DNA of 35,910 nt from a virus, in IMG/VR virus record IMGVR_UViG_3300044712_001212, positions 1 to 35,910 of that record, one strand, 5' to 3'. Below the pieces are notes generated by a model. The model saw only the letters and a program-made list of their open reading frames with translations, did no database searches and was not told the origin of the DNA. Position 1 is the stretch's first letter. Each line of letters starts with the position of its first letter. Of this stretch, positions 2,097-32,007 are shown piece by piece. A program made the position numbers and the translations under genes.

Positions 2097-2121
2097 ATTA
2101 TATTAAAAAATTATAAAATTA
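2097..2121 (-). promoter_or_regulatory. candidate phage late promoter, copy e
   Basis: On the minus strand: TAATTTTATAA, six T, then AATATAAT. It lies in the 37-base spacer before the truncated left-edge gene. The ATG is nine bases after the motif with AGGGAT between, giving a very short leader. Confidence 0.62.
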
Positions 2122-2124
2122 CAA

Positions 2125-2550
2125 TTATCCTATTTTTACAGGTAGATTTGCAGGATTCGCATACATTGAAATATATGCCGCATTAGCCGCTGGGAGATTT
2201 GAGCTAGAGTTTGCGGCAGTCATAAAGGTATGGGCTGCTATAATCCAATTAGCCATTTCTGGTGTCAAAACAGTGCCAAACTTGATTTGTGTTCCAACTC
2301 CCGCAACTCCAGGTCCCATCATGATGCTAAGATTGTCTCTAGTAACAAAAGTCTGATTTCCAACTGCCGTTCCTGCGCTTAATGTTCCCACTATTTTAAC
2401 GTCACTTAAAGAGTCCACAATGCATTGAGCAATAGCATCTCTCAGATTTTGGGTGCTAGTATCCTTCCATGCCGCATCTGGTATTAATGCTATATCTTTT
2501 AGGTTCTTTTCTACTATAAGTTTCATATTTTGCAAGTCTATGGTTGCCAT
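2125..2550 (-). CDS. small baseplate-region protein, unrecognised
   Basis: A 141-residue protein. Residues 1-50 are helical (MATIDLQNMKLIVEKNLKDI, NLRDAIAQCIVDSLSD); the middle is Gly/Val-rich (GTLSAGTAVGNQTFVTRDNL, MMGPGVAGVGTQIKFGTVLT); the C terminus is helical and Ala-rich (MANWIIAAHTFMTAANSSS). The strong SD is AGGAGAGGG. It lies between the spike and the truncated left-edge gene. It may be a small structural component of the baseplate or spike tip, by position only. Confidence 0.75.
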   Translation of the reverse strand: MATIDLQNMKLIVEKNLKDIALIPDAAWKDTSTQNLRDAIAQCIVDSLSDVKIVGTLSAGTAVGNQTFVTRDNLSIMMGPGVAGVGTQIKFGTVLTPEMANWIIAAHTFMTAANSSSNLPAANAAYISMYANPANLPVKIG

Positions 2551-2562
2551 TTATCCCTCTCC

Positions 2563-3864
2563 TTATGGGTTTTGTTCACCTATATACACGTTGCTACTTC
2601 CTTCCGTAATCTCTCCAACGAGTTTAAAATCAACCGAAGTTGGAGTAAATATTACGGGATAAACTCCAAATACCTTAAAGCATGTAGGAACTCCAGTCAA
2701 TAAGGATGCGGTATTTTGCAGGCTCTTTGTTGTAATTCCAGGATGAGTTGTATCGATGACATTGGCTATGGGAATAGTAACTTGGTCATTTTCTCTTGCC
2801 GCGTGCTGAAGACCAACCCCAACTTCGTTGCCGCCATTGATATTGATTTTCTTTGATGTTATAGTGGTATTTCCAGATACTATAGCCGTCAAGTCTTTTC
2901 CCACACCAACATTTGTGTTTCCTGAAACAATTGCTGTCACATTATTCGCCGCATTAACATCTATGTTTTTTGAATTAACACTAAGAGTGTCGCTATTATT
3001 CATCTTAATATTGTTTGTATCAACGAACATCTTTCCATTCTCATCAAACCGAACAACTATTCCAGACTTCATTTTTATTTCTAGATTTATCTTTGTGCCC
3101 TCATCTGTAGTTGTATATGTTCCGTCTGATCCAATAAGCGTCCCAATAGTTACCTCCGCTATATTTGGATTTGGTGTTGAGTCATTTATCGTGTTGTCGG
3201 CTAACGATGCAACAGTTATTTTTAATTCCGTAAGAGCATTGCCTCCGATTGTTGAAGTAATATCGGAGCCATCATTGGTTATAATAGTTGGGTCTCCATT
3301 TATATTTCTTACAACAGAGCCCATTGTAACGCTTCCACCCTCATTAGTCATATAAAACTGAAGAGAGTCTAGATTTATACTTCCATCATTTGGATCAAGA
3401 ACAATGGAATCTTGACCGCCATCTCTTATCTCAATTTGTTCATGAATATAAATTTCTGAGTTTTGTTTACTGTTTAATAGAAGTTCTCCAGGAAGTATCT
3501 TGTTTATTCTAGATGGCAACCCATCAACGTCATCTACGGCATTTAACATCTTGTCATAGTCTGCTGGCAAAAGATATGATAGAAGGACTGGTCTGTTTCC
3601 AGCATAGGCGAATAGGACTATCGATCCGACTTCTGGCATAAAATGCATACCGCTTCGTATTCCAACATATGGTCTGCTAATATCCACATTTGTAACCGCT
3701 CCACGATTAGGAGCTAGCCATTCTAGGTCAACTTTATTTGTATCCGCATTAACTGCTTTAATTTTGGCAATCTTAATGGCAAGACGCCTCAACATACCAT
3801 CATTTGATGTTGTGACGTTTTGGCTTTGATATATGTCAGATTCAGATGTTTGTCTTCCGACCAT
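2563..3864 (-). CDS. baseplate spike protein with OB fold and beta-helix
   Basis: The membrane-piercing tip at the centre of the baseplate. Residues 25-115 have the gp5/gpV-type OB-fold pattern (IAKIKAVNADTNKVDLEWLA, FMPEVGSIVLFAYAGNRPVLLSYL). Residues 115-340 are beta-rich with short repeats, including NTNVGVGKDLTAIVSGNT and a second near-copy VSGNT, consistent with an intertwined beta-helix. A GVGLQHAARENDQVTIP block follows at about 345-365. No lysozyme domain is inserted, unlike T4 gp5. The last residues (VGEITEGSSNVYIGEQNP) would form the tip. GAGG SD. Position after the hub is canonical. Confidence 0.82.
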   Translation of the reverse strand: MVGRQTSESDIYQSQNVTTSNDGMLRRLAIKIAKIKAVNADTNKVDLEWLAPNRGAVTNVDISRPYVGIRSGMHFMPEVGSIVLFAYAGNRPVLLSYLLPADYDKMLNAVDDVDGLPSRINKILPGELLLNSKQNSEIYIHEQIEIRDGGQDSIVLDPNDGSINLDSLQFYMTNEGGSVTMGSVVRNINGDPTIITNDGSDITSTIGGNALTELKITVASLADNTINDSTPNPNIAEVTIGTLIGSDGTYTTTDEGTKINLEIKMKSGIVVRFDENGKMFVDTNNIKMNNSDTLSVNSKNIDVNAANNVTAIVSGNTNVGVGKDLTAIVSGNTTITSKKININGGNEVGVGLQHAARENDQVTIPIANVIDTTHPGITTKSLQNTASLLTGVPTCFKVFGVYPVIFTPTSVDFKLVGEITEGSSNVYIGEQNP

Positions 3865-3876
3865 TTTTATCCTCTG

Positions 3877-6800
3877 TTATTTAATTGGCAATGGAGTGAT
3901 TGTCGGAACATTTGCTACGGTTGTGTCGCCAGTGGCGTCAACAACAGAACTTGACTTGCTATTCCCTATTAATGGAGATGTATTTTGCGGGCTAGACTTA
4001 ACACCTTGCATTGTGATTTTAGCAGCCTTATCCTGAGACTTTGTATTCTTCTTAACAGTCTGTTTTGTTGTTTTGCCACCAGATAGTTTCTTTTGTGTCT
4101 CTAGGATGTTTTTGAACTTTTCTATTGACATGTTGGTATTTTCAAGTATCAAAGACTTTCCAAAGTTCAAGTAAACTGGCAACTCTCTTCCAAACTCATC
4201 AGTATAATCTCTGTATGAACCATTATTGTCAATGTCCTGTATGATAGAGTTGAATATTTGGACCGCCGCGATAATTGATTGACGAGCATCTTTGCCGAGT
4301 GTTGATGCGCCATTTAAGAGGTCATAGCTGACCATATTGGATGAGTTTGCAATTGAGATATTTGAATCAATGAAATCCTTTGTTTGTTTCAAGAAAATCA
4401 ATATGTATTCGTTCATCTTTGAAAGAGAGAAGTAAATTCCAGCAACCTGCTCTGGTTGAGTTCCTCCAACCTGATTGATTTCCAATGTAGTTTGAGCATA
4501 TGGTCCAGATTTAGGAACAGAGTTCAAGTAACTGACTATAGATTGTTGTATTATTGCTATGGCACTATCTATATAGTCTTTCGGCACCGCAAGTTGATCT
4601 GCCTTACTTTCAATCTTATCCTTATCTATGCCATAAAATGATCTAAAATTCTTGTAGTTGATGTTGTAGATAACGTTTTGGGATGGAGATCCGCAATCCC
4701 CAGCAATGTTGCTTTGTTGAGTATCGCCATCAACTATAAGCCCAATGTATGCTGGATTGTCATGGTTGGTGATTATAATTTTACTTTTCAATAGCAATGG
4801 AGCTGTATCTACCTGCTGATTTGTTTCTCTTACCTCAAAGTTCGTAAGGTAAGTTGGAACATAATGGGTTATGACTGCCTCACCACCGTTTACTATATGG
4901 TCAGTGTATGTGTATGGAGGACTTCCAGGCTTTTGTTTATCTTTCGGCTCTTGAGATGTTACTCTTTCAACTAAAGTAACCTTCTTCTGAGCCTTAAATC
5001 CACTTATAATTCTTCTTCCACCGACAAGCGTCAAGGTAGTGGTGAATTGGTCTCCAACTGAGAACTCATGGGATATGTCCTTGATGTAAAACACCATGTC
5101 TCTCGGCTTAATATAAACTGATGTCCCGAGCCTTAATTCTGGTCTTCCAATGATAGTCACTGACCCGTTTACAAGCTCCATGTTGTTTCTAGCCATATAT
5201 GCTCTTCCAAAATCACGGCAATCAGGAATACTATGAAGGAAGAACATATTCTGAACTTCTCTATAGTAATATCCGAAGTCTCTTATTAAATTCATATCTT
5301 GGAAGGCGCTATAAATCATCGACTTCTCAAGCCCTTGGGAATACACATAGTCTCCAGCGACGCCGATTCTAGTTATGATACCATCAACTGTGTCGGTTAT
5401 GCTCATGTTCGTAATGTCTGATTCTTCTATTATATAAGTTGGATTATCAACTGCTGGGTCAACGCTAAATAGTGGCGGCTTCAATACAAAGTGTCCATTG
5501 GTATCACAATAGAATTCATATTGAATTGCATCCGCTACGGCTTGAGCGATTGATGCTCTAGTTTGATAATCACCTTCGAAGAAGTTTGGAGAACGTATGT
5601 CCCAGCGGAAAGGATAAACTAGGCTTAAGAAGTTATCATCAATGACTTCGAGAACAATTTTTGCAAATATTTGCTTCCAATGACTCGTGATTCCAAAAAT
5701 GTCCAAGAAGGCTTCTCTGCCTGCTACTTTATATTTGGCTAATTCTTTTTCTATTTTATTTTTCTGAAGATTTGCTTTTTGCTGGTCAAATTTTACCACA
5801 TCGAGCGCATCTATCTTTTCTGCAATACTGTTCATTTCAGAAGTTTCTTGCTCTATCTGCTTTGATAGTTCCTGAATAGATTTGCTTTCAGATGGACTCG
5901 GAACTGCTTTGGCTTGATATTTTGCAAGATTTGCCGTATTAATCTTTGCCTTATTTTCAAGTGCAGTGTATTGAAGTCCCAAAGATTTCCAAGTGGGGTC
6001 TGTTGTCATGGCTCCGCTTTGGAATTCTTTTCCATTGTATCTTGCCTTGGACCTATCGTTGTATTGATTTAAGAATCTTTGCTTTGATGTTGCACCACTT
6101 AAATCCTTGCCATCTTGGGTTGTGTCTTTTACATTTTCACCTGGCTGGACGTTTCCATATTGGTCAATCTGAGGTATGGTTTCTCCCAAAAGAACCAATG
6201 TTTCAGCCGCATTTGATAATTCATTCAAATCATAGGTAGAGGTTGCTATAATGTTGTCTGTGCTGAAACTAATAAGATCTTTGAAAATCTCTATAGCATG
6301 AGTTTCTGCATACTTGTTGGCATAGTTTGTAAGGTCTTGACCAGTCAAACCTATTTCTAAGCCAGCAGGAGAAACATTTATGCTAGAAGCCTCCATCCAA
6401 TAACCAAAAGATTTTCCAGTTACCGATAGAGACATGGCCGAGCCTGGGGCAATTGCTTGAGATATTGAAGTTATAACTCCAAGAAAGATTCTCTTGTATA
6501 GATTCTTTGGTCTCGGCATCTTTATGGCAATGTTGTAAATCTCATCATTTAATTGACTGCCGCTCTCTTCAAAAATTTCCTGTAAACTTGTTCGTCTAGG
6601 ATAAACATCTTTGACAATAAAATGATTAACCTTGGCATCTCCAAGAATGTCTTGGGCATTTACTGGAACAAAATAGCAGGAAGTTATTCCATCGCCCTCT
6701 GGAATGCTAGGAGCAACTTGTCCCTGAACATTTTGCTTTGAAAGAAGAGTCTTTACGGCTATGGTTTTTCTGCTGCCATCTTTAAAAACTATTATTATGT

Positions 6801-7329
6801 TTCCATAAGATTGAGTTCCAGTAGCAGACTGATATCTAACATCGCTAACATTGTAGGATGGATTTGATAAAGCTGTATATCTTTTTACATCAAAACATGA
6901 TTGAGGAATTACAATGTTGCTGTTCAGCTTCTTAATCTTGGCACAATATTCTTCTATATCTGGAACGTTGCCATAATAATCTATCGCAAAAGCCTGTATG
7001 GAATTTATAGGATGTCCATCTTTGCCATTTTTTGGTATATTGTTTGTGTCATAAACGTTATCCTGTTCAAATTTATCTAGAGAACTCTTACCAAAAATCT
7101 CTATGGAACTCATCTTTTTTACTTGAGTAAATCCGAATCTGTCAACCAATTCATCATTTATGTTGGCTAAAGTAAGATTAAAACTGCTAGAAATTCCTTG
7201 AACAGAGTAACTGCAATTGAAAGACATTACGTGTTTCGTAATGTCTTTCTCAAAGGCACTCCCTCTATTGAGAATAACAATAGCATCTGGGGCATCATAA
7301 CTAGCGTTAAAATACTTACTATAAGCCAT
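3877..7329 (-). CDS. baseplate hub protein (gp27/XkdQ-like), unusually large
   Basis: The hub joins tube, spike and baseplate. The N terminus (FEKDITKHVMSFNCSYSVQG and FNLTLANINDELV) is the usual tube-like hub domain with the pattern DIT-x-HV-x-S-x-S-x-S. Further motifs include VYPFRWDIRSPNFFEGDYQT and AQAVADAIQYEFYCDTNGHFVLKPPLF near 560-620, and VDGIITRIGVAGDY near 650. A charged coiled coil lies at about 460-545. At 1150 residues it is about twice or more the size of most hubs; the C-terminal 330 residues are an extra mostly helical domain plus a Ser/Thr/Lys-rich tail. AAGG SD. The spike gene follows after 12 bases. Confidence 0.78.
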   Translation of the reverse strand: MAYSKYFNASYDAPDAIVILNRGSAFEKDITKHVMSFNCSYSVQGISSSFNLTLANINDELVDRFGFTQVKKMSSIEIFGKSSLDKFEQDNVYDTNNIPKNGKDGHPINSIQAFAIDYYGNVPDIEEYCAKIKKLNSNIVIPQSCFDVKRYTALSNPSYNVSDVRYQSATGTQSYGNIIIVFKDGSRKTIAVKTLLSKQNVQGQVAPSIPEGDGITSCYFVPVNAQDILGDAKVNHFIVKDVYPRRTSLQEIFEESGSQLNDEIYNIAIKMPRPKNLYKRIFLGVITSISQAIAPGSAMSLSVTGKSFGYWMEASSINVSPAGLEIGLTGQDLTNYANKYAETHAIEIFKDLISFSTDNIIATSTYDLNELSNAAETLVLLGETIPQIDQYGNVQPGENVKDTTQDGKDLSGATSKQRFLNQYNDRSKARYNGKEFQSGAMTTDPTWKSLGLQYTALENKAKINTANLAKYQAKAVPSPSESKSIQELSKQIEQETSEMNSIAEKIDALDVVKFDQQKANLQKNKIEKELAKYKVAGREAFLDIFGITSHWKQIFAKIVLEVIDDNFLSLVYPFRWDIRSPNFFEGDYQTRASIAQAVADAIQYEFYCDTNGHFVLKPPLFSVDPAVDNPTYIIEESDITNMSITDTVDGIITRIGVAGDYVYSQGLEKSMIYSAFQDMNLIRDFGYYYREVQNMFFLHSIPDCRDFGRAYMARNNMELVNGSVTIIGRPELRLGTSVYIKPRDMVFYIKDISHEFSVGDQFTTTLTLVGGRRIISGFKAQKKVTLVERVTSQEPKDKQKPGSPPYTYTDHIVNGGEAVITHYVPTYLTNFEVRETNQQVDTAPLLLKSKIIITNHDNPAYIGLIVDGDTQQSNIAGDCGSPSQNVIYNINYKNFRSFYGIDKDKIESKADQLAVPKDYIDSAIAIIQQSIVSYLNSVPKSGPYAQTTLEINQVGGTQPEQVAGIYFSLSKMNEYILIFLKQTKDFIDSNISIANSSNMVSYDLLNGASTLGKDARQSIIAAVQIFNSIIQDIDNNGSYRDYTDEFGRELPVYLNFGKSLILENTNMSIEKFKNILETQKKLSGGKTTKQTVKKNTKSQDKAAKITMQGVKSSPQNTSPLIGNSKSSSVVDATGDTTVANVPTITPLPIK

Positions 7330-7337
7330 TGTCTACC

Positions 7338-8186: not shown

Positions 8187-8199
8187 TTATGAAACTCCC

Positions 8200-10143: not shown

Positions 10144-10155
10144 TGTATATTTCCT

Positions 10156-12068: not shown

Positions 12069-12096
12069 TTGACAAGTTTTGAATCTTGGATATAAT
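12069..12096 (+). promoter_or_regulatory. consensus sigma70 promoter of the moron
   Basis: Exact TTGACA (12069-12074) and exact TATAAT (12091-12096), spacer 16 bases. The start would fall near 12103, giving a leader of about 30 bases containing AGGAGG. It points away from all surrounding late genes and should be read by host RNA polymerase without phage factors. Confidence 0.88.
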
Positions 12097-12132: not shown

Positions 12133-12438
12133 ATGAAATTCTCAGAAATGTGGTTACTGTCAGCGCTAATAAGGGGTGAGAATCCCATCATCAAGTTCAT
12201 TTCGGGCATTCTCTTCGGATTCTGGATTCCACTAACTGCAATTGCTGTATTAACGATTTGCCTGAACTTTGCGACAATTATGCACAATCCCCTTATGTTC
12301 TTTCCTCTTTATTTCTACACTGTCTGGGTGATTGTTTCAACTTTTGTTTCAACTTTCTGGAACGCAATCGCTTATTGTTTCACGCATCCCGAAGAGGTTC
12401 AGTGCTTCTTTAGGCGACTTTTCCTCTTTGATTGCTAG
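12133..12438 (+). CDS. small membrane protein on the opposite strand (moron)
   Basis: The only convincing plus-strand gene. The 101-residue protein begins MKFSEMWLLSALIRGENP. It has two hydrophobic blocks: about 22-48 (ISGILFGFWIPLTAIAVLTI) and 53-80 (LMFFPLYFYTVWVIVSTFVS), and a short Cys-containing end (CFFRRLFLFDC). It has its own consensus sigma70 promoter and a strong AGGAGG SD six bases before ATG; a TTG start upstream is not supported. It lies between G-T and the next minus-strand gene and overlaps the G-T stop tail-to-tail. Independent promoter, opposite orientation and membrane topology are the hallmarks of morons, which often alter the host surface or exclude other phages. Function here unknown. 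Confidence 0.8.
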   Translation: MKFSEMWLLSALIRGENPIIKFISGILFGFWIPLTAIAVLTICLNFATIMHNPLMFFPLYFYTVWVIVSTFVSTFWNAIAYCFTHPEEVQCFFRRLFLFDC

Positions 12439-13977: not shown

Positions 13978-16122
13978 TTAAATCTGGGTTTTGATAGTAA
14001 ACGTTACTTTGATTCTGTTCAACGGGAAGACTGGAACGTAGGAGACGGTAGAGAGCAGTTCGGTTGGATTATTTGGATTCAACTGAACTGTAATGTCTCC
14101 TTGTTGGCTTATGATTCCAGCAGCCGATAGAGAAGACATTGTTGAAACAATAGAAGACTTGACCAACGGAATAACAACAGATGGAACAAGTTTCTGACCG
14201 ATATATCCATCAAGCGTGAAGCGAACCGCCTGAGATACATAGTCAGTTGTTGTAACAACTGAAAGTTCACCGTTTGCTGGATTCGATTGGTCTGTCGTCA
14301 ACTGGTGACGGACATAGATTCTAGAACCAGCCTTGTCGATAATCAAGTTTCCATAAGCGGCTAGATTGTTCTTTTCTGCATCTAGGTAATACTTGCCGCT
14401 ATGGTTTGGTGTAACTGCTGAGAGGTCAAAGTATCCACTGAGTCTTTGATTTGTCAATGGAGTAGCGACATCAGAGCCAGTCTTGCAAGATAGCGCCCCA
14501 ACGCCGACGGACAAGAAGCTTCCATCAACAGTTAGATTTTGGGTTGCACCTGAAGTATCTTGAACTTGAACCACAACAAGTCCAGGAGCAACTAATGAAA
14601 TACGCTTTGACTTAAGGCTTTGGCTTGCTTCGTAGATGTAGGTGTATGGAGTGTTGACATCACCAATTTCAGCCTGCCCCAAGGAGCCAATTGAAATGCG
14701 CTCCTTCTTGTTGATATCAAGAGACATCGTATTGCAATGCGACAACACAGCTTGCAACATTGCCGACTTGTTATCTAGGGTGACTTCTGTTCCGCTTGTG
14801 CTATATCCACATGTTAGAGGAACGATTACGCTAATCAAATCATCTGTGGCTAGTGAATCTAGTGGTCCGCCAGTTACAGTAAGGTCAAGGGCTGTATTTG
14901 CATTTCCAGACATCTGAACGCAGGTAACAAATGGTGCGCCGTTTGCGAAAGCCAAACGAGCAGCCAATGTTAGCGAATTAATCTTTGATGCAACATAATT
15001 GCCATTTGTATCAAGCACCCATTCAACTTCTGGTCCATATTCATTTGCTACATCTGAATAGTTTGAGAAGTTTTGATATCCGTAATCCGCGCTTGTCTTG
15101 TTGAAGGAATAGTTGACATAGTAAGCCCCACTTACCGGAGGAATGGTAAGTGATGGGTAGGTGTAGGTTGATGGATTAACTGGTGCCCAAGTGATGTAAT
15201 TATTTCCAGACAAGTAGTATCCAGCGGCAACGGTGCTGTATCCAGAACTGTCTGGGCTAGTGTATGTTCCTGAAGGAAGATATGTTACACCGTTTCCAGT
15301 TACGCTTATAATTGAAGTTGTATGAATTGTTCCAGTTACATTTACAATTACAGATGTTCTTGTAGATGGCTGAAGAATTGATACACCAGTAGTTCCTGAA
15401 TAATTATATTGAATCCAGAATGCTTCGCCACTTGGCAGCAATCCAGCACCTTCGGCATAGGCGGTTCCAAAGTCTAAAGCAGAACCTTTTGTGAAAACTA
15501 GACTTGTTCCACTCTGCCACCATCCTTGATTGGATGGAGTTGTTCCAGTTCCAGAGAATTGAGCTGCTGGGGTTGGGCTTGTTCCGGTCCAAGGGGCATC
15601 CCAGACACCAATAACTTTAAATGAACTTGCTCCAGATTCTATTAGATTTATTGGAACGATAACGTCTGCTGTATTTCCAGAAACGAAAACAAAACTTCCA
15701 CTTGTCATTTCTGCAATTTTATCTCCGCCATAAATCGAAGATCCACTGTAATTTACGTTTGCAAAATATGTTACACCTGTCGCTGGAGTTGTTGAAAGAG
15801 GATATGGATTAGAAGCAGGATACCAAGTGATGGTTCCGCCTGATTGTGACCATCCATCTCCATAAGTAGATGTTCCAGTTGAAGGATAAGTTCTTACTGA
15901 AGCGCCAACGCCCCTGTAGTCCCAAACTTGATCAACACTTCTAACATCGGTCTCAGAGAGAACGGAAGTATATGAAGCCGACATTATGACGGATTCACCA
16001 GTAATTGACTTATACTTTCTTCCAACTCCGATAAGAGCTAGAAATCTTGTTCCGCCAGGTAGCGAAACAATGGACGAATCGATGACTACGTTCGTGTACA
16101 CTCCAGGAGGCGTGTATGCCAT
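13978..16122 (-). CDS. tail sheath protein with three-repeat insertion
   Basis: The contractile outer sheath of the tail. The 714-residue protein begins with the typical MAYTPPGVYTNVVIDSS and GGTRFLALIGVGRKYKS. It resumes the sheath core at about residue 350 (NEYGPEVEWVLDTNGN, SLTLAARLAFANGAPFVTC) and ends with the conserved C-terminal domain (AAGIISQQGDITVQLNPNNP, YVPVFPLNRIKVTFTIKTQI). Residues 62-348 are a large beta-rich insertion made of three similar units of about 70-80 residues, likely projecting from the sheath surface. AAAGGAG SD; expressed from a unit starting at candidate promoter copy d, 72 bases upstream. Followed by the tube gene after 19 bases. Confidence 0.93.
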   Translation of the reverse strand: MAYTPPGVYTNVVIDSSIVSLPGGTRFLALIGVGRKYKSITGESVIMSASYTSVLSETDVRSVDQVWDYRGVGASVRTYPSTGTSTYGDGWSQSGGTITWYPASNPYPLSTTPATGVTYFANVNYSGSSIYGGDKIAEMTSGSFVFVSGNTADVIVPINLIESGASSFKVIGVWDAPWTGTSPTPAAQFSGTGTTPSNQGWWQSGTSLVFTKGSALDFGTAYAEGAGLLPSGEAFWIQYNYSGTTGVSILQPSTRTSVIVNVTGTIHTTSIISVTGNGVTYLPSGTYTSPDSSGYSTVAAGYYLSGNNYITWAPVNPSTYTYPSLTIPPVSGAYYVNYSFNKTSADYGYQNFSNYSDVANEYGPEVEWVLDTNGNYVASKINSLTLAARLAFANGAPFVTCVQMSGNANTALDLTVTGGPLDSLATDDLISVIVPLTCGYSTSGTEVTLDNKSAMLQAVLSHCNTMSLDINKKERISIGSLGQAEIGDVNTPYTYIYEASQSLKSKRISLVAPGLVVVQVQDTSGATQNLTVDGSFLSVGVGALSCKTGSDVATPLTNQRLSGYFDLSAVTPNHSGKYYLDAEKNNLAAYGNLIIDKAGSRIYVRHQLTTDQSNPANGELSVVTTTDYVSQAVRFTLDGYIGQKLVPSVVIPLVKSSIVSTMSSLSAAGIISQQGDITVQLNPNNPTELLSTVSYVPVFPLNRIKVTFTIKTQI
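15079..15939 (-). repeat. three tandem protein repeats in sheath insertion
   Basis: Residues about 62-130, 168-246 and 270-348 of the sheath share a pattern: a VWD or VTG strand, a Gly/Ser/Thr-rich turn, a GW/GY-x-x-SG-x-x-(I/L) strand, then a strand ending in Y-x-x-x-Y-S (VTYFANVNYSG, FWIQYNYSG, YYVNYSF). Copies are diverged at DNA level. They look like three small beta domains inserted before the core fold. Confidence 0.6.
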
Positions 16123-16261
16123 TTTTGAATCTCCTTTAATTGGAAAGATTTTCTTTATTCTTTTAAAGATTGATTGGTAAGAATATAACTCTTTATATAC
16201 TAAAAAATTATAAAATTTTTGATTCCTGAGAAAAAAATAAATTAATTAAGGGCTAATATTA
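16123..16261 (-). promoter_or_regulatory. spacer with candidate late promoter d before the sheath gene
   Basis: This 139-base spacer between the tail-terminator stop (16262) and the sheath start (16122) carries the fourth copy of the 25-base motif at 16194-16218: AAATTTTATAA, then T-rich spacer, then TAGTATATAAA. It matches the other four in strand and arrangement. A leader of about 65 bases with no clear hairpin follows, ending in AAAGGAG before the sheath ATG. This is the supported reading of copy d; the separate 16194-16218 entry marks only its span. Confidence 0.62.
16194..16218 (-). promoter_or_regulatory. candidate phage late promoter, copy d
   Basis: On the minus strand: AAATTTTATAA, T-run, then TAGTATATAAA. 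It is in the 139-base spacer upstream of a gene boundary: downstream of it, in transcription order, is the sheath gene's end of the spacer. Confidence 0.05.
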
Positions 16262-17427: not shown

Positions 17428-18195
17428 TTATAATCCGTTTGGAAGAGAAAATGCTTTTGAATCAACTCCAGGCTGAAGTCTCTTTGCTGAAAAATCCTGG
17501 TGCATTGGCATGTTTTCTTGGACCAAGCTGTATGCTGTGGCAGTAATCTCATATCTTGCAAGTTCTTGTATTGGAGTTCCAGTTTCTTGATTAAAAATAT
17601 ATCTTATGAAAACATCTCTCTCACCAAGAACGTTTACTATTTTACCTTCACAATTTTTAGTAAACACAGTCCATGCTCTGAATTCATGTTCTACAAATAG
17701 TCCAACATCCCTTGTTTTCATTACGCTATCTGTATAACTTTCAGAAATAAAGAACAGTCCATCAGGTCTGTCTGGATTTCTAAGAAGTTGATATCCATGA
17801 ATCGCAAGAGGATTGCTTTGATCGTTTGATGGACTAGTAGTTATTATTCCAAAACCATTGCAGAGAGGACAGGAGCTTCTTCCAGTCTTTCTAACGTCAT
17901 CCCAGCATATACATCTTTTGCCACCATTAAGACCGATATCTGGTATAATTGGATGTCTCCAAATACGAACAAGTTCTCCTAGAGACTCTAATATCTGCCT
18001 TTCACGATCTCTTTGTTCATCAAAAACGGTAATAGGTTTTCCAGTTACCGGATCGGTCCCAAGCCTAGTCTTTATAAAACAATTGTCCATAGACATTTTC
18101 ATGGGGTTGGTTCCCCATTTGTCTAAGTAGGACTTATGCCCTGCTCTGTTCGGAGTATCTCCGTTTGGCTGTATCTTACAGTTTCTCTGTGGCAT
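17428..18195 (-). CDS. zinc-binding probable neck / head-closure protein
   Basis: A 255-residue protein with a four-Cys site Cys95-x-Cys97 (RCICWDD) and Cys109-x2-Cys112 (CPLCNGFG), preceded by a helix (QRDRERQILESLGELVRIW) and followed by beta-rich sequence (GLFFISESYTDSVM, EHEFRAWTVFTKNCEGK). Cys clusters of this form occur in uncharacterised phage neck-region proteins, and the position immediately before the tail-terminator candidate fits a head-closure role. I chose ATG 18195, with GGGAAG upstream, over the in-frame TTG 7 codons earlier. It overlaps the preceding gene by 20 bases and is followed after two bases by the next start. Confidence 0.6.
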   Translation of the reverse strand: MPQRNCKIQPNGDTPNRAGHKSYLDKWGTNPMKMSMDNCFIKTRLGTDPVTGKPITVFDEQRDRERQILESLGELVRIWRHPIIPDIGLNGGKRCICWDDVRKTGRSSCPLCNGFGIITTSPSNDQSNPLAIHGYQLLRNPDRPDGLFFISESYTDSVMKTRDVGLFVEHEFRAWTVFTKNCEGKIVNVLGERDVFIRYIFNQETGTPIQELARYEITATAYSLVQENMPMHQDFSAKRLQPGVDSKAFSLPNGL

Positions 18196-19015
18196 CGTCT
18201 TCCCTTTTTTCTTCAAAATTTCTAACTCTGTCTAACCAACTTATGCCGTAGTCTTCATTTTTTCTAATAGGATTAGGGACACTTGCTATCTTTGTAAGTT
18301 CATTTTTTTCTAGGACTTTATAATCCCCAGTAATCTTGTCAGTTATTCTTATCTCTTCACAAGAATAAATCATCATCTTTATTTCTTCGGGGACATTCTT
18401 TAGAAGAGATAAATCTTTAAGACTCAGGTCAGCAATGAGTTTATCGGTATCTTCATCAAGTTCTATTCTTATCCTAATCCATCCATCGTCCATCATCTTG
18501 GTCCAGACGGCTCTAAAATCCTTACTCTTAAAATGTTCTAGAGCCCAACTAGCATGAGATTCATCTTCTCTAATCTCAATAATCTCTTCTTCAGGAGAAA
18601 TCCAGAATCCTCTTTCGTCTATTAAAGAGGCTTTTCTATAGGAAATAAGGCTAGCCCCAATATTCTTTTCCCAATATTTTCTTTCTTCTGCATCAGCGGG
18701 ATTTTCATCTCTGTCCTGATTCTTCCTAAACTCATCTGCTTTATTTTCTCTTTGATGCATTTCCGCTTCACCTAAAAGCTTCATTGTGTCTGTTAGGGCA
18801 TTATATTTAGCCCTATCATCGTCCGCATACCTATCCGTGTCTAGATATCTATTTACATTAAATGGTCCACCATTTTTAGTTCTATAGTATTTTTTCAAAA
18901 GGTCATGCATATACTTTCTTACACGGGCAAGTTTGAAGGGAGCATGACCTTGAATGTCCTTCCAAATCTTCCAATCGTTCTCATCATAATGTATTTGCCA
19001 ATTAGGATTCAGCAC
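18176..19015 (-). CDS. unknown protein of neck cluster
   Basis: A 279-residue, charged protein of unrecognised family. The first 110 residues are basic-acidic helices (KLARVRKYMHDLLKKYYRTK, EAEMHQRENKADEFRKNQD). The middle contains GFWISPEEEIIEIREDESHA followed by a helix and WTKMMDDGWIRIRIELD, which looks like a small alpha/beta domain. The start is GTG at 19015, overlapping the metallopeptidase gene by 14 bases, with only a weak GGGT upstream. Its 3' end overlaps the next gene. The overlaps on both sides indicate a coupled translational unit with the metallopeptidase and the zinc protein. Confidence 0.74.
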   Translation of the reverse strand: MLNPNWQIHYDENDWKIWKDIQGHAPFKLARVRKYMHDLLKKYYRTKNGGPFNVNRYLDTDRYADDDRAKYNALTDTMKLLGEAEMHQRENKADEFRKNQDRDENPADAEERKYWEKNIGASLISYRKASLIDERGFWISPEEEIIEIREDESHASWALEHFKSKDFRAVWTKMMDDGWIRIRIELDEDTDKLIADLSLKDLSLLKNVPEEIKMMIYSCEEIRITDKITGDYKVLEKNELTKIASVPNPIRKNEDYGISWLDRVRNFEEKREDDATEKL

Positions 19016-21526: not shown

Positions 21527-21527
21527 T

Positions 21528-24866: not shown

Positions 24867-24876
24867 GATACCCCTC

Positions 24877-25014: not shown

Positions 25015-25017
25015 CTT

Positions 25018-25042
25018 ATTATATTATTTTTTTATAAAATTT
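25018..25042 (-). promoter_or_regulatory. candidate phage late promoter, copy c
   Basis: On the minus strand: AAATTTTATAA, an A/T spacer, then TAATATAAT. It sits between the capsid terminator and the next gene, exactly where transcription must restart. The first ATG (25014) is only four bases after the motif, so the transcript would be leaderless for that gene or begin inside it. Confidence 0.65.
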
Positions 25043-25082
25043 ATGAGGTATTAGACAACAAAATATAGCACATTTTAAAGGA

Positions 25083-25121
25083 TAAAAATAAAAAACCCCA
25101 AGAGATTTCTCTCCTGGGGTT
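25083..25121 (-). terminator. strong rho-independent terminator after capsid gene
   Basis: On the minus strand a 12-base-pair stem (AACCCCAGGAGA with TCTCTTGGGGTT, one G-T pair) closes a GAAA tetraloop and is followed directly by TTTTTATTTTT. It lies 24 bases after the capsid stop and should end or attenuate the scaffold-to-capsid transcript. Confidence 0.9.
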
Positions 25122-25144
25122 CTTTATTAGTAGCAGCTTGGGGT

Positions 25145-26125
25145 TTAGACCAAGGTGTACTTGGCTACGCCGCGAGCATTGGCGATGGAGATACCAATGA
25201 TTTCGCTGACAACCCATCCGAGTTTCAATTGCTTTGGCTCGTCGGCTGGCATGACTTCGATATCTTGACGTATTGGCATTGGACCAACGAAGTCTGCGTC
25301 TGCGCAAGCGTAAACGGTCTTCGAAGGAACAATCTTCGATACGATGATATCAGCAGTCCACAAGCGGCCGAAAAGTCCAGTTTGGAGAACTTCACGGACG
25401 GTGACTGGGTCGAAGTCGGTGTAGGAAATGGTACGGAAACCAGCAAAGGTCTTGATGTTCATAAAGAGCCTTGCGGTTACGTTGTCCCATTGGTCTACTT
25501 GGCTGTAAAGCTCAGCCAATTTTGCCTTCTCAAGTGAGGTTCCGGTTACTGCGGTTCCAGTAACAGCGGCATTCTCAAGAGTTGAGGCATAGTCCAAAGC
25601 TGCGAAGATGTTTGCGTCTTCTTGAGCTTGGATTTCCTGACGGGCGCGTTGCTGCGCACGGTCAATCACGTTGAAACGGCGGGTCTTGACTTCACGGATA
25701 CGAACCGTTGGGTTAGCAACGATTTCGAATTCGGGAACTGAAAGACGATCGCCCTTAATACGTGATTCTTGAACTGCTCCGTTTGAGGATACGACGATAG
25801 CGGAAACGTCGATGTCCTTATCGTAAACAGCCAATGCTCCTTGTGGGAGAGGATCAACGCGTAGAGCCTTACGGCCTACACCCTGATAGTCGAGGTTCTT
25901 ACGGATTGGGTTAGCCATTGCCTGAGCAAGAGCCAATTTGCCGCGCTCGCTTGAAAGAGCCTTGAACAACAGGGCTTCCTTCTCAGCGTCGCTTACAGGT
26001 GAAGAACCTGGTTGGTTTGGCTCAACTCCGGTAGCAAGAGCTTGGGCATACGAAACTAGTCTGTCCAAGGCTTCTTTCTTACCAAAGGCGTTGAGTTCAC
26101 CCTTTGTAGAGAACATTTCTGCCAT
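25145..26125 (-). CDS. major capsid protein
   Basis: A 326-residue HK97-fold capsid protein building the icosahedral shell. An N-terminal helix (MAEMFSTKGELNAFGKKEALDRL) is followed by an E-loop-like region with RKALRVDPLPQGALAVYDKD, a P-domain helix with RRFNVIDRAQQRARQEIQAQEDANIFAALDYA, and a C-terminal region (TADIIVSKIVPSKTVYACADADFVGPMPIRQDIEVMPADEPKQLKL) typical of myovirus capsids. I chose ATG at 26125 because AAAGGAGT lies just upstream; a TTG 12 codons further up would run through that SD. Codon use is more GC-ending than neighbours, consistent with very high expression. A strong terminator follows. No large N-terminal scaffold domain is present, in keeping with a separate scaffold gene. 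Confidence 0.88.
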   Translation of the reverse strand: MAEMFSTKGELNAFGKKEALDRLVSYAQALATGVEPNQPGSSPVSDAEKEALLFKALSSERGKLALAQAMANPIRKNLDYQGVGRKALRVDPLPQGALAVYDKDIDVSAIVVSSNGAVQESRIKGDRLSVPEFEIVANPTVRIREVKTRRFNVIDRAQQRARQEIQAQEDANIFAALDYASTLENAAVTGTAVTGTSLEKAKLAELYSQVDQWDNVTARLFMNIKTFAGFRTISYTDFDPVTVREVLQTGLFGRLWTADIIVSKIVPSKTVYACADADFVGPMPIRQDIEVMPADEPKQLKLGWVVSEIIGISIANARGVAKYTLV

Positions 26126-26132
26126 TTGAGTG

Positions 26133-26336
26133 TTACTCCTTTGATTTATTTTCTGATCCAATTTTCTTAACGTAGTTAAGTCGGATGCAGAATGGCGAGG
26201 TGCAATACACCTTCGCCTTTTTTTGTTCGATAAGAATACGTGCCTTCGCCGGGGTTAGCGGTTTTAGCTGGGTCATGTTGCCGTTGAAAACGATAACTGA
26301 CCTTTCTGGTTTCCCAGAGTTTAAAGAATTAGGCAT
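26133..26336 (-). CDS. stand-alone PLMP/RRXRR-like domain protein
   Basis: A 67-residue protein. Residues 14-53 match the pattern of the PLMP (RRXRR) domain at the N terminus of IscB-type HNH nucleases: VIVFNGN, then PLTP (26-29) followed by AKARILIEQKKAKV and PFCIRL (48-53). In IscB the corresponding sequence is a short strand, a PLMP turn, a helix with an R/K-rich end, AKV, then PFxIxL. No RuvC or HNH domain follows; the protein ends in a short basic tail. The gene lies between the decoration and capsid genes, and its last codons form the capsid SD (AAAGGAGT), so the two are likely coupled. The family resemblance is by eye from the motif spacing. Confidence 0.72.
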   Translation of the reverse strand: MPNSLNSGKPERSVIVFNGNMTQLKPLTPAKARILIEQKKAKVYCTSPFCIRLNYVKKIGSENKSKE

Positions 26337-26373
26337 GTCTCAGCCAACCTCATCTAATGATGGTTTAAGGTTA

Positions 26374-27015: not shown

Positions 27016-27071
27016 TTTTTCACCCCCTTACATATTTAGTTTGTTCCGCATGGGAACGTATGTTTTATAGA

Positions 27072-27095
27072 AGCCCTTCCCTTTCGAGAAGGGCT
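27072..27095 (-). terminator. hairpin between scaffold and decoration genes
   Basis: A perfect 8-base-pair stem (AGCCCTTC with GAAGGGCT) and 8-base loop, lying 13 bases after the scaffold stop. On the minus strand it is followed by TCTATAAAA rather than a T-run, so it is a weak terminator at best. It may act as an RNA-processing or stability element separating scaffold from the more highly expressed capsid genes. Confidence 0.45.
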
Positions 27096-27108
27096 CAATT
27101 CTGTGAAG

Positions 27109-28977
27109 TTACTTCCAGTCTAGGTTAGCCAACTTGCTGATGAATTCCCCGTCGTTTTCAACTGCTGAGATTCCGTTTTCCTTTTGTCCAACTTGGACAG
27201 CCTTGAAGGAAGCGGTCTTGACGAGTTCTTCGGTTGATGCTGACTTCTTCATTACTGGAGCAGATTCAACTGCCTTCTTGTAGGACATGAAAGCCTTGTC
27301 ATCGAAGTTGAGAACTTGCTCAACCAATTCAGCCTTGGCTTCTTTTGTAGCCTTGCAGAATCCGCGCTCAACTGCGGTCTCTACTAGTTCGTATGCTCTC
27401 TTGACTCTTCCCTTGAACTCGTCCATTGAGGCAACAATCTTGTTTCCACCATCAATATCCTTGTTCATGTCGGTGCCAAATTCCTTGGCGTTTGCTTGAG
27501 CATAGTAATTCTTCCAGTATTCCTCTGACTTGCTGTCTGCGGTCTTGGTAGTTCCCTTGCCCGCACCCTTTGAGGAAAGTTCCCCAGTAGGCATCTTGTT
27601 TACTACTTTTTCAATCTTAACTGCTTGTTCGACCTGGTCTTCAACTTCGGCTCCATCATCGGCTGGCTTTCCTCCGACTGATACATCAGGAACTTCATAC
27701 TTGCCAGGATGAGCCTTCTCGACTAGTCCTTCTGCATCTTTTTCAGAACCAGCAGGAACTACGCCGTATTCTTCTGAAGCTAGTTTGGTGCGACGATCAG
27801 CCTGTGCCTTGAGGAACTTGCCTACGAAGGAAGCTTCAACTGCCTCTTCTACTGGCTCTTCGCTGATTTCAATAGCGCCCTCAAGATTCTCTGGCTCTCC
27901 GCCTTCGACGGCTGCTTCTCCGCCTTCAACGATTCCCTTTGCAGCTTCAATGGCTTCATCAGCCTTTTCAACTAGGGTGTCGATTGAGGTTTCTGCGGCT
28001 TCGATTGCGTCATCGGCGGCGACTGCGTCTTCAACCATTGCTTCTTGTGCTTCTACGGCAATCTTGATTAGCTTTATCTTTCCAGCGGCAGTAAGTTTCT
28101 TGCCTTCCTTCAACTTGGCTGAAACTTCTTTGCCTTCCTTTTGTGCATCAAGAAGACCCTTCTCAGCCTCTTGCAACATCAAGAATACCTTGACAGTTTC
28201 AGCTGGGGCAGTCTTCTCAACTATCTTGGTTTGCCATTCTTCTAATTCTTCCAACTTTTGCTCTACGATTCCAAGACCAGCTTCGGTCTCTGCACCAAGA
28301 TTATCAATTTCTGCATCTAGTGCTGAATCCTCTTCTGGAGTTGCTTCTAGAGATTCCAACTCTTCTTCAACTGGTGCTTCGTTCAAGTCAGCCTTCTTAA
28401 CTAGAGACTTGTTAAGTTCCATTGCCTTCTTGACAAGGGTTTCATCGCCAGTCATGAGATAGGAAACAACGGCGAATCCATCGCTCTTCAACTTGGCTAG
28501 AACCTTCTGTCCATATTCCTTTGAATGACCATATTCCAAGATTTTCTTGGCATCTGCGCCCTTCAATTTCGGTCCCCAAATATCAGCCATGTCTGCGGTC
28601 AAGACTGGTTGACCATCAGCATACATAGTCCAGGTTGACTTAACTGGATTTGAGGCGTTCTTCTTGAGTCCGAGTTTGATTGAGGCATTGGCAATCTTCT
28701 CGTCTTCAGGAATACGCTGCCAGTGCTTCTTCATTTCGAATTCAGAACCCTTTGGACCCATAACTTGCTTGGTCTTGTTGGCTTCGCCTTCGAACTTCTT
28801 GATTTCAAACGGACGAGAATCTTGTCCACCAGGAGCAGTAGTTTCCATGGGCTTGCGATCATACTCAATGCCCTCTTTGCCTCCAAAACCCAACTTCTCT
28901 GGGTTGTTCGAAGTTATTTTACCTTCGTGAGACTCTTCTTGTTGGCCCTGAAACCACGCCTTATTTATCTTAGCCAT
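27109..28977 (-). CDS. probable internal scaffold / prohead core protein
   Basis: A 622-residue, very acidic protein rich in Glu, Ala and Lys. Residues about 195-400 are continuous heptad-like helical sequence (for example VEEELESLEATPEED and the EAIEAAKGIVEGGEAAVEGG region), expected to form coiled coils. A compact block at about 112-190 (STWTMYADGQPVLTADMADIWG) looks folded, and a second helical region lies at 470-600. Location between the prohead protease and the capsid gene is where tailed phages keep their scaffold, and composition agrees. It could instead be a cleaved internal head protein. It starts after AAAGGAG behind candidate promoter copy b. Antisense reading gives a long spurious frame because of the biased codons. 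Confidence 0.65.
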   Translation of the reverse strand: MAKINKAWFQGQQEESHEGKITSNNPEKLGFGGKEGIEYDRKPMETTAPGGQDSRPFEIKKFEGEANKTKQVMGPKGSEFEMKKHWQRIPEDEKIANASIKLGLKKNASNPVKSTWTMYADGQPVLTADMADIWGPKLKGADAKKILEYGHSKEYGQKVLAKLKSDGFAVVSYLMTGDETLVKKAMELNKSLVKKADLNEAPVEEELESLEATPEEDSALDAEIDNLGAETEAGLGIVEQKLEELEEWQTKIVEKTAPAETVKVFLMLQEAEKGLLDAQKEGKEVSAKLKEGKKLTAAGKIKLIKIAVEAQEAMVEDAVAADDAIEAAETSIDTLVEKADEAIEAAKGIVEGGEAAVEGGEPENLEGAIEISEEPVEEAVEASFVGKFLKAQADRRTKLASEEYGVVPAGSEKDAEGLVEKAHPGKYEVPDVSVGGKPADDGAEVEDQVEQAVKIEKVVNKMPTGELSSKGAGKGTTKTADSKSEEYWKNYYAQANAKEFGTDMNKDIDGGNKIVASMDEFKGRVKRAYELVETAVERGFCKATKEAKAELVEQVLNFDDKAFMSYKKAVESAPVMKKSASTEELVKTASFKAVQVGQKENGISAVENDGEFISKLANLDWK

Positions 28978-29051
28978 CGTTTTTCTCCTTTAATTGGATG
29001 AATTATAAATTAATTTATTAGGAGACAGAATCCCCTTGGTTATGCCTTCAC

Positions 29052-29076
29052 AATATATTAAAATATTATAAAATTT
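29052..29076 (-). promoter_or_regulatory. candidate phage late promoter, copy b
   Basis: On the minus strand: AAATTTTATAA, a spacer, then TAATATATT. It lies in the 122-base spacer between the protease and scaffold genes and would drive scaffold, decoration, PLMP-like and capsid genes. A leader of roughly 65 to 70 bases would precede the scaffold ATG, with the SD AAAGGAG. Confidence 0.62.
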
Positions 29077-29099
29077 TTACGCTTTTTAGAAAAAATTAT

Positions 29100-30584
29100 T
29101 TAACCCTTTTTTGTCTTTAAATAACTCAAAAATGCTCTTTTTATTTCTTCTTTATATTCTTTTTCTTTGTGATTAAGAGTTTCATCTTGTTTCTTAAGAG
29201 GCTTTCCGTTTGGACCAGATGGACCTTCAGCGGCGGTTTCATTAAATGTTTCTACCTCTTCTTCACGGGGATCTTTATCTTTAGGATAAATTCCATCCTC
29301 ATCAGCCCAGTGTTCTTTTTTAATAACTTCTTTTACTTGAACTTTAAGTAGAGGATCTTTTTCTCCACTTAATGGCCATGCTTTCTTTACAAAAATTCCG
29401 CCATCACTTGCAACTACCAAATCAGTGTTATCAATATTCTTGATAATCATTTCCTCGATAGCCTTTATTATTTGACCCTGACCCTTTGCCGAGAAAACTT
29501 CGCATAGGTCTTCGTCAATAAAGACACTCCAACTTTGTTTGTCGGATGAGGAAGCCCACCAAGGATAGTCTTTATTTTCAATAACAACTTTTCCTTTGGC
29601 TCCAAAGTCATGTGAGGTCTTGCGTAGTTTAATCTCCTCAGTGACTATTTTTATTCTTCTCATTTCTACTGCGCTCTTTTCCATTTCTGCCTCTTTTTGG
29701 AGTTTTTGTTTGTTTGACTTTCTTGCATCAAATTCACATTCACTATCTTTGCATTGAGCCGTGGCGTTGATGTCCTTAAGGCTTTCTGGGACTGAAAGAT
29801 TTGAAGATGCGAATGTAAGGATATCTTTTTCATCTTGTGTTAAGTCCTTTGAATCCTCATGATGAGACTCAATCGCAGTCTTAAGAGAAGCAACCTTTTC
29901 AAGAACATTTGCTTCGCGGAATGCTGGAACTGAAACCCAAGAAAGTTCTATAAACTCCAAATCATGATTGACCTCATGAACTGGCCACTGTCCCATCTTA
30001 TGACGATCGTTATTGGTCAACATTCCTATCTTCATGCCCTTATAACTTGCAATATGCGGACAATAATCTTTTTCTGTTCTTGCTTCATTGTTACAAACTG
30101 AGCAATTAGAGAATCCGACACGGGTTCCCATTGAAACAGAATTTACCACACCAGTCTCAATGTCGCGTGCCAATTGAGGATGAGATTTTCTATCAACTGC
30201 AATGAGACATTCTACACAATGGTCTGCTCTATTTAAGTAGGCATCAATAACAAGTCCACGAATCATTCTAATATCATCAGATTTGTGGTCTAGAAAGTTT
30301 CCTTTTCCAACAAACGTTTGATAAGAAGATTCTAACTCTCTCATAGGGAATCCATCCCCATTCATATTTGGTCCCCATTTTTCTAGGGATCCAATAGCCC
30401 TTGTTCTAACATAAAGAAAGTCGGCTGATTTCTTTAAAGCCCTCTTAGCTGCAACTACAGTCTTTTTGAACTGCTCGCTAGCTAATTTTGAATCTTCACT
30501 ATTGGGATTCAGTTTTATCTGATTTTCATCAGAAAAAGAATCAACAATGGCATTGTCTGAGAAGGCAAATTTAAGGAATGACAT
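29100..30584 (-). CDS. prohead maturation protease with long C-terminal extension
   Basis: A serine protease that degrades the scaffold and trims head proteins before DNA packaging. The N-terminal domain (residues about 55-190) has the herpes/HK97-type layout: FVGKGNFLDHKSDD with candidate catalytic His100, the strand GLVIDAYLN, and the nucleophile region GVVNSVSMGTRVGF with Ser149 or Ser151. A zinc-like cluster follows (Cys161-x2-Cys164, then Cys175-x-His177), as in many large-myovirus homologues. Residues 240-494 are extra: a hydrophilic linker, a probable folded domain around DYPWWASSSDKQSWSVF, and a charged tail. The extension may be a fused scaffold or targeting region. GAGG SD. Position between portal and scaffold/capsid supports the call. 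Confidence 0.85.
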   Translation of the reverse strand: MSFLKFAFSDNAIVDSFSDENQIKLNPNSEDSKLASEQFKKTVVAAKRALKKSADFLYVRTRAIGSLEKWGPNMNGDGFPMRELESSYQTFVGKGNFLDHKSDDIRMIRGLVIDAYLNRADHCVECLIAVDRKSHPQLARDIETGVVNSVSMGTRVGFSNCSVCNNEARTEKDYCPHIASYKGMKIGMLTNNDRHKMGQWPVHEVNHDLEFIELSWVSVPAFREANVLEKVASLKTAIESHHEDSKDLTQDEKDILTFASSNLSVPESLKDINATAQCKDSECEFDARKSNKQKLQKEAEMEKSAVEMRRIKIVTEEIKLRKTSHDFGAKGKVVIENKDYPWWASSSDKQSWSVFIDEDLCEVFSAKGQGQIIKAIEEMIIKNIDNTDLVVASDGGIFVKKAWPLSGEKDPLLKVQVKEVIKKEHWADEDGIYPKDKDPREEEVETFNETAAEGPSGPNGKPLKKQDETLNHKEKEYKEEIKRAFLSYLKTKKG

Positions 30585-30633
30585 GGTTTAGTCCCTCTTT
30601 TTAGGAATTATCGTAATCTTGTTCGTGGTCTGG

Positions 30634-31014
30634 TTAATGACGATCGCTTTCAAAATCTCTAGACATCTTATCGTAATCGGATTCTTCAAGCAAATCTTCG
30701 GCTTTAGAACTTAGTTCTGCATTTAAATGAGATATTAAAATTTCATCCGTAACATCTTCTGCATCTCCATCATCTAATAACCGATACCATCCATTTACTG
30801 CTTCTGCTGATTTTACATCAAATTCAATTTCAGGAAATTCAGCTGGTTCCTCAAGAGTTGCTGGTCTATATCTGCCAAATGACTTACCTCTATATTCAAT
30901 TTCTGGTTCTTCCGTTACATATTTTGCGCCATTAAATGTTATCTCAACGCTTTTGTTCAGAGTAATGGACGATGCCGTTTTTAGTTTTTTCAAATTGCCA
31001 TAAATTATTGGCAT
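30634..31014 (-). CDS. small acidic protein of head cluster
   Basis: A 126-residue protein, unrecognised. It starts with a basic segment (MPIIYGNLKKLKTASS), continues with beta-prone sequence (VEITFNGAKYVTEEPEIEYRG) and ends in an acidic helical tail (DLLEESDYDKMSRDFESDRH). The start shares one base with the preceding stop (TAATG) and has AAGGA eight bases upstream, so expression is coupled to the acidic protein before it. It sits directly upstream of the prohead protease. A head-assembly role is an inference from position only. Confidence 0.75.
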   Translation of the reverse strand: MPIIYGNLKKLKTASSITLNKSVEITFNGAKYVTEEPEIEYRGKSFGRYRPATLEEPAEFPEIEFDVKSAEAVNGWYRLLDDGDAEDVTDEILISHLNAELSSKAEDLLEESDYDKMSRDFESDRH

Positions 31015-31787
31015 TAAATCTTCCTTAGATGTGCTAGCCTTGAAAATCTTCTCATTGCCTTTTCTGCAAGTCTTGCAGCCTTTAAATCATTGGTGTTAAC
31101 TTCTCCAACTGGCTCTGGAATGTTTGGCTCAGGAGCCTTTGGCTTCAATGCTTCTTCTGGCTTCTTAGGAGCCTCTTCTTTTTCTTCAACTTCTAATGGC
31201 TCTTCTTTTTTCTCTTCAATATCTTGTTCATCTGGTTTAACTTCTTCCTTAATTTCCTCATCTTCTACAGTTGGGGCAACATCAATATCTTTAAGGATTT
31301 TGTCTGACCAATCTGGAGGGAATCCAGCATCGGAAAGAGTCTTTAAAAATTCAAGATCTTCGCCCAAGTTCTCCTTGGTGTCATAACCTCCAACATATCT
31401 CTTATTTACAATTCCCTCTATTCTTTGATTCTCATCTGGATAATACAAATAATAACTCTTAGCCTTGGCTTTTATTTTTGAAAGTTGATTCTCTTCTTCC
31501 ATCTTTTTTGCATAATGAGGGTCGAAGATAATGACGAATTTATCCCAAGGAATTAATTCCTTGAAAGCTTCTTCTTCGGGAGTCTCCATAGGAGGTTCAT
31601 CAATCGGAGGAATGGCGCCAACATCTTCTGGGTCTTCCTTTTTTTCAAAAGGATTGTCTGCGCCAGCGTCTCCTTCGGGGGCTCCTGCGCCTTTTAAGGC
31701 TTCTTCTATTTTGGCGTTTTCGTCTTCGCCCGCAGCGCGAACGATTCTGACGAATTCATCCATTAATTCTTTTTCTGAGTTATTCAT
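31014..31787 (-). CDS. acidic low-complexity protein of head cluster
   Basis: A 257-residue protein, strongly acidic. Residues 20-75 and about 160-235 are Glu/Pro/Lys-rich and probably disordered, with repeated EEK, EEP and PEP units. A middle block (residues 75-155, with WDKFVIIFDPHYAKKMEE and a YYLYYPDENQ segment) looks folded. The C terminus is a basic helix (AARLAEKAMRRFSRLAHLRKI). This charge pattern resembles phage scaffold or internal head proteins, and the gene lies between portal and protease, but no family is recognised. The start uses GGAG and overlaps the previous stop. A single-base overlap (TAATG) couples it to the next gene. Confidence 0.8.
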   Translation of the reverse strand: MNNSEKELMDEFVRIVRAAGEDENAKIEEALKGAGAPEGDAGADNPFEKKEDPEDVGAIPPIDEPPMETPEEEAFKELIPWDKFVIIFDPHYAKKMEEENQLSKIKAKAKSYYLYYPDENQRIEGIVNKRYVGGYDTKENLGEDLEFLKTLSDAGFPPDWSDKILKDIDVAPTVEDEEIKEEVKPDEQDIEEKKEEPLEVEEKEEAPKKPEEALKPKAPEPNIPEPVGEVNTNDLKAARLAEKAMRRFSRLAHLRKI

Positions 31788-31972
31788 CTTGGCTCCAAAT
31801 CCTGAAGCTTATTCTCGTGTCCGTCCGGGCATCTTACAACACCATTTTCAGAACTGCCAACTTCAACTGGCAATCCACAGTCTTTGCAGCGGGGAGCATT
31901 TTTTTTGCCACCCTCAAAAACCTCAATAACCTGATTGTTTAGGTTCTGAATTCCTACTTTTACGAATGACAT
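31784..31972 (-). CDS. very small zinc-ribbon protein
   Basis: A 62-residue protein with a compact zinc site: Cys29-x2-Cys32 (CKDC) and Cys48-x3-His52 (CPDGH). The N-terminal half (VKVGIQNLNNQVIEVFEGG) looks like a short beta hairpin. It has a GAGG SD and is the first gene after candidate late promoter copy a. Its stop overlaps the next start as ATGA, so the two are translationally coupled. Function is unrecognised. Small zinc-ribbon proteins are common in large phage genomes and here it lies inside the head gene cluster, so a structural or assembly role is possible. Confidence 0.8.
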   Translation of the reverse strand: MSFVKVGIQNLNNQVIEVFEGGKKNAPRCKDCGLPVEVGSSENGVVRCPDGHENKLQDLEPR

Positions 31973-31982
31973 AATATGCCTC

Positions 31983-32007
31983 TATTTATTAATTTTTTAT
32001 AAAATTT
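31983..32007 (-). promoter_or_regulatory. candidate phage late promoter, copy a
   Basis: On the minus strand it reads AAATTTTATAA, then an A/T spacer, then TAATAAATA. It is one of five copies that align over 25 bases without gaps. The downstream gene's ATG at 31972 begins only 10 bases after the motif, so the transcript would have a short leader carrying GAGG. The promoter role is inferred from conservation, strand and position. Confidence 0.6.

Follow-up and report, generated by a model that had tools for sequence, protein, structure and literature searches.

Late promoters of the T4 type consist of TATAAATA and are served by gp55 together with gp33 and gp45. Other described systems rely on a phage-encoded RNA polymerase, either multisubunit (phiKZ/AR9) or single-subunit (T7). 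The late motif of AR9 is AACA-N6-U(A/G) and the motif of phiKZ is TATG, neither of which matches the motif described here, and a review holds that bioinformatics cannot predict middle or late promoters in jumbo phages that encode a polymerase (PMC7598289). Jumbo-phage group 3, whose subgroup 3.2 includes phage G, has been described as having neither of the two polymerases, apart from two members, and no sigma factors (PMC7824862). A literature search for promoters of phage-G-like huge phages found no paper, a full-text search for AATTTTATAA returned nothing relevant, and the promoters of these phages appear to be largely uncharacterised.

The stretch of DNA analysed here (the window), a fragment from IMG/VR, is 35.9 kb long. 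Its long open reading frames lie nearly all on the minus strand, in a run of terminase-like, portal, protease-like, putative scaffold, capsid, sheath, and tape/baseplate-like genes that extends to the left edge. The closest named phage is Bacillus phage G (Donellivirus), whose gp27 shares 55% identity with the capsid protein and whose gp14 shares 33% with the portal; the window is therefore taken to derive from a huge phage of the phage-G-like (Donellivirus-like) kind. The capsid query found no match in GTDB genomes and therefore gave no clue to the host; the sheath query found no relative in IMG/VR, and an Rfam search of the window gave no match. The close relatives used for comparison, L007 to L013, have capsids 72–79% identical to that of the window, and longer contigs carry L009 (G001, 205 kb, 47% GC), L012 (G002, 88 kb), and L011 (G003, 39 kb). 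The records of the relatives are mostly fragments, coordinates marked rc refer to the reverse complement of a contig, so that its genes read forward, and gene starts come from the ORF caller of this analysis, not from curated annotation. The portal gene is interrupted by an insertion of about 1 kb in L010/L167 and in L168, as is the capsid gene in L013, and these insertions are probably introns or inteins.

The pattern WAATTTTATAA-N6-TARTAWA occurs five times in the window, always on the minus (gene) strand and in spacers ahead of genes. The five copies (5' ends at 32007, 29076, 25042, 16218, and 2121) align without a gap over 25 bases, with an invariant TTTTATAA (the 5' box), a 6-nt A/T spacer, and a second, 3' box. 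The copies and the genes around them are as follows:

31983..32007, minus strand: copy a, TTTTATAA at 32004-31997 and TAATAAA at 31990-31984, before the zinc-ribbon-like gene
31784..31972, minus strand: zinc-ribbon-like protein, 62 aa, cysteine-rich, with weak Pfam matches only; first gene behind copy a
29052..29076, minus strand: copy b, TTTTATAA at 29073-29066 and TAATATA at 29059-29053, before the putative scaffold gene, leader about 72 nt
27109..28977, minus strand: putative scaffold, 622 aa, Glu/Lys-rich, between the protease-like and capsid genes; no family match
25145..26161, minus strand: major capsid protein, upstream of copy c
25018..25042, minus strand: copy c, TTTTATAA at 25039-25032 and TAATATA at 25025-25019, directly behind the terminator of the capsid gene
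16194..16218, minus strand: copy d, TTTTATAA at 16215-16208 and TAGTATA at 16201-16195, before the sheath gene, leader about 69 nt
13978..16122, minus strand: tail sheath (PF17482, E 3e-7), behind copy d
2097..2121, minus strand: copy e, TTTTATAA at 2118-2111 and TAATATA at 2104-2098, before the left-edge gene
3..2087, minus strand: left-edge gene, reaching the window end, behind copy e

The label "scaffold" is a guess, based on where the gene lies and on the composition of its product. Copy c precedes the first open reading frames beyond the capsid terminator, and the leaders are long for copies b and d and short for a, c, and e. The original prediction is borne out in these respects, as it had placed five minus-strand copies with a gapless 25-base alignment at these positions, in spacers before gene starts, and had described the leaders in the same way. 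On the plus strand of the window, AATTTTATAA occurs once, within a gene at 1263 and without a second box. Among 14 spacers of the window (1,381 bases, 70% AT), the gene strand has five occurrences of the full pattern and the opposite strand none. Markov models of order 1–3 trained on the spacers predict 0.0003–0.006 copies of the strict pattern, at most 0.05 of looser forms, and fewer than 0.06 overall, and 3,000 simulations for each order never reached five copies; a chance origin of the five window copies is excluded.

A position weight matrix built from the five window sites only gave nine matches above 12 bits (at least 12.2) in G001, all nine on the gene strand ahead of starts, and mostly in spacers, with one overlapping the end of the upstream gene. 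Unseeded expectation maximization (EM) on the upstream regions of G001 also puts this motif at the top (log-likelihood 123, versus 90–106 for eight dinucleotide shuffles). A refined scan, whose matrix, like the register comparison below, reuses the training genome, found 20 copies of at least 18 bits in G001, 17 of them in spacers no more than 200 nt before a start on the same strand; of the three others, two have their next called start further off and one overlaps the upstream gene at its end. The motif tracks gene orientation and not the strand of the replicon, since the sole strong G001 copy that is oppositely oriented (rc 18244) is followed by a gene of that same orientation. In many G001 copies, an A-tract and then GC stand some 7–13 nt upstream of TTTTATAA, forming a weak third element.

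Four of the five window copies (a, b, c, and d) lie at junctions that are orthologous in relatives:

Copy a junction: G001 rc 136049; L007 4325
Copy b junction: G001 rc 138686; L007 6923; L008 6889; L010 6926; L011 7034
Copy c junction: G001 rc 142888; L008 11020; G003 rc 27901
Copy d junction: G001 rc 154422

Copy e is shifted in G001, where the nearest copy (rc 167038) lies one gene earlier, before the orthologue of window 2125-2550. In L164, a relative outside the training set, the best match (23.1 bits) stands before the orthologue of the protease-like gene, where G001, L007, and L010 likewise carry the motif. An operator, or a recombination or replication site that happens to sit in spacers, would also mark module boundaries as this motif does, but is hardly credible in view of the strict gene orientation, which includes the opposite-strand copy, the fixed distance to starts in the tightly packed copies, and the placement directly behind terminators. 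The more distant capsid relatives (55–63% identity) contain no strand-biased matches, and EM in four large distant contigs revealed no convincing shared motif, which confines the motif to the clade with a capsid identity of about 72% or more. Matches in phage G (250 kb scanned, 30% GC) fall on both strands at chance level, and an exact-pattern scan of IMG/VR gave no match.

G001 also carries clean TTGACA-N17-TATAAT promoters, mostly at rc 2–25 kb, which is presumed to be the early region, and its strong motif copies span rc 36–203 kb, including the virion genes, except for the opposite-strand copy at rc 18 kb. The window holds a promoter for contrast within its late block:

12069..12096, plus strand: TTGACA-N16-TATAAT promoter of the sigma70 type, serving the gene at 12133-12438 inside the late block

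The gene at 12133-12438 (plus strand) is the one clear opposite-strand gene of the late block and encodes a 101-aa membrane-like product; its G001 orthologue (rc 157879-158232), 34% identical, lies at the same junction on the opposite strand and has a sigma70-type promoter too. That both promoter types occur in one region speaks for the motif as a promoter class of its own. The five sites could alternatively be ordinary promoters of the host housekeeping sigma factor, with a strong -10 element in AT-rich surroundings and active at all times, as the resemblance of TATAAW to TATAAT might suggest. This is improbable, however, since the T at -7 is not conserved, the second box is conserved and has no equivalent in sigma70 promoters, and the clean TTGACA-N17-TATAAT class stands apart in the same genome. 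Nor is there a -35 signal: TTGACA is not conserved upstream of either box, with at most 0.2 bits per column at -36 to -31 over 18 G001 sites, and the TTGA-like sequence found 16–17 nt upstream of the 3' box in two G001 copies is there by chance. The motif is conserved, bound to the gene strand, and different from the TTGACA-N17-TATAAT class, and the spacers that hold it precede transcription units for virion and other genes; it is solely the identity of the downstream genes that points to a late timing.

The spacing of the two boxes relative to the ribosome-binding site suggests which of them acts as the -10 element. Twelve copies are tightly packed (a and e of the window and others in G001, G002, L007, and L008); their 5' box ends 21–27 nt before the ATG and, where a Shine–Dalgarno (SD) sequence was scored, 11–14 nt before that sequence, and the -10 boxes of five tight sigma70 promoters in G001 lie 22–25 nt from the ATG and 10–15 nt from the SD. 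The 3' box ends within -2 to +1 nt of the SD in the tight copies, so the SD would be lost from a transcript that began 6–7 nt beyond the box. From the sigma70-like spacing of the 5' box and the abutment of the 3' box on the SD, the -10 element is most likely TTTTATAA(W), and TARTATAWTAG is most likely the region of the start site, with TARTATA probably spanning the transcription start. The original prediction, in which the 3' half was the -10 element, probably had the register reversed.

That opposite register makes TARTATA the -10 element, gives TTTTATAA the role of a specificity element further upstream, near -25, and implies leaderless or SD-less messages from the tight copies. It draws on the T..TA...T spacing of the 3' box, which is sometimes TATAAT and, like a sigma70 -10 box, has T and A conserved, and a further T conserved weakly, at the spacing of -12, -11, and -7, and on the few starts that follow the motif directly without an SD (G001 rc 40805, G003 rc 27901, and window copy c). 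About nine tight copies nevertheless keep an SD (AAAGGAG, AGAGG) that begins -2 to +1 nt from the 3' box and would be truncated by a start 6–7 nt on, and the 5' box is spaced like the -10 box in the sigma70 promoters of the phage itself; even though the kept SDs could also stem from read-through from upstream, the opposite register is unlikely.

The opposite-strand gene of G001 (rc 17727-18280) bears on the same question. Its SD is paired in a hairpin around the motif copy (-15.9 kcal/mol, z -2.9), and a start inside the 3' box would remove the left arm of the hairpin and free the SD, which fits the register with the 5' box as the -10 element. The product resembles an HNH homing endonuclease by eye, and an HNH Pfam search of it gave no match. 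In T4 gene e and I-TevI, a hairpin likewise sequesters the SD, which a message lacking the left arm frees (PMC3014915). In having a late-type motif inside an SD-sequestering hairpin, the G001 gene resembles I-TevI or mobE of T4.

As the reader of the motif, the original prediction had named a phage sigma-like factor or a phage polymerase, and the relatives favour the former. A beta-type subunit of a multisubunit polymerase (PF00562) is absent from 12 relatives, mostly fragment records but including the complete phage G, with 14 of 14 controls positive, and a T7-type single-subunit polymerase (PF00940) is absent from G001, G002, and phage G, with the T7 control positive. An AT-rich motif with fixed spacing that probably includes the start site would suit either kind of phage polymerase, but a promoter of this sort is very improbable given these absences. 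Proteins with sigma-70 region 2 were found in 12 of 15 relatives. G001 encodes two, one of 249 aa with regions 2 and 4 and one of 284 aa in which only region 2 passes Pfam; phage G gp69 is sigma-like with both regions, and the best match of the relatives' sigma-like proteins is phrog_351. The 284-aa protein was considered as a region-2-only, gp55-like sigma and dropped, because phrog_351 is still matched by its C-terminal part and the collection contains no relative of it. A further protein, of 131 aa and with a region-4-like part as its only sigma-like part, is conserved in the three longest close relatives:

G001 rc 116062-116458: 131-aa region-4-only protein
G002 rc 54508-54904: its counterpart, 57% identical to the G001 version
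G003 rc 1892-2288: its counterpart, 37% identical to the G001 version

A motif copy and the late module lie immediately behind this gene in all three (motif at G001 rc 116517, G002 54999, and G003 2359), the G002 copy being the weakest of them at 14.8 bits. In G001, the gene stands three genes behind the 249-aa sigma. A pairing of a region-2 sigma with a separate region-4-only protein would recall the division of labour between gp55 and gp33 in T4.

Within this clade of huge, phage-G-like phages, the motif is likely the late promoter, at which the host polymerase is probably redirected by phage sigma-family proteins. TTTTATAA(W) would serve as the -10 element without the involvement of a -35 element, and TARTATAWTAG would cover the start site and the first transcribed bases, so that even the tightest copies would yield mRNAs that retain their SD. 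Host RNA polymerase would most likely read the motif after being redirected late in infection by a region-2-containing sigma, perhaps aided by the region-4-only protein, and the reading factor would be encoded outside the window. A late system independent of that of T4, with the sigma split into a region-2 and a region-4-only protein and TARTATA read together with TTTTATAA as a second specificity element, is a tentative and rather doubtful extension. The phage-specific late promoter originally proposed is thus supported by strand, position, orthologous junctions, and the separate sigma70 class; its register and the phage polymerase are not. A late promoter predictable from sequence, beside a clean early class, makes the transcription plan of this lineage testable; in metagenomic contigs, the motif can mark late operons, and it narrows the candidates for the reading factor to a short list.

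Among known elements, the host sigma70 promoters of the same phages share with the motif a TATA core at the same distance from starts, but they carry TTGACA at 16–18 nt and lack a second box around the transcription start. In phage G (JN638751), an unbiased motif search found about 30 near-identical TTTACA-N17-TGATATAAT promoters at the right end (447–497 kb), which carries these instead of the window motif. The promoters of phiKZ/AR9 polymerases are likewise clade-specific AT-rich motifs with conserved start-site bases in huge phages (PMC7598289), but the relatives differ in that no phage polymerase was found in them. Compared with TATAAATA of T4, the motif has the consensus TTTTATAA(W), variable A/T after it, and a second conserved box at the start site, and the relatives' sigmas match phrog_351, with no gp55 orthologue identified. 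Like T4 late promoters, however, it is an AT-rich -10-type element without a -35 element before virion genes, likely used by the host polymerase with phage sigma-family proteins, and the separate sigma4-like protein recalls gp33. The kind of element is already known, and what is new is its consensus, its start-site box, and its lineage.
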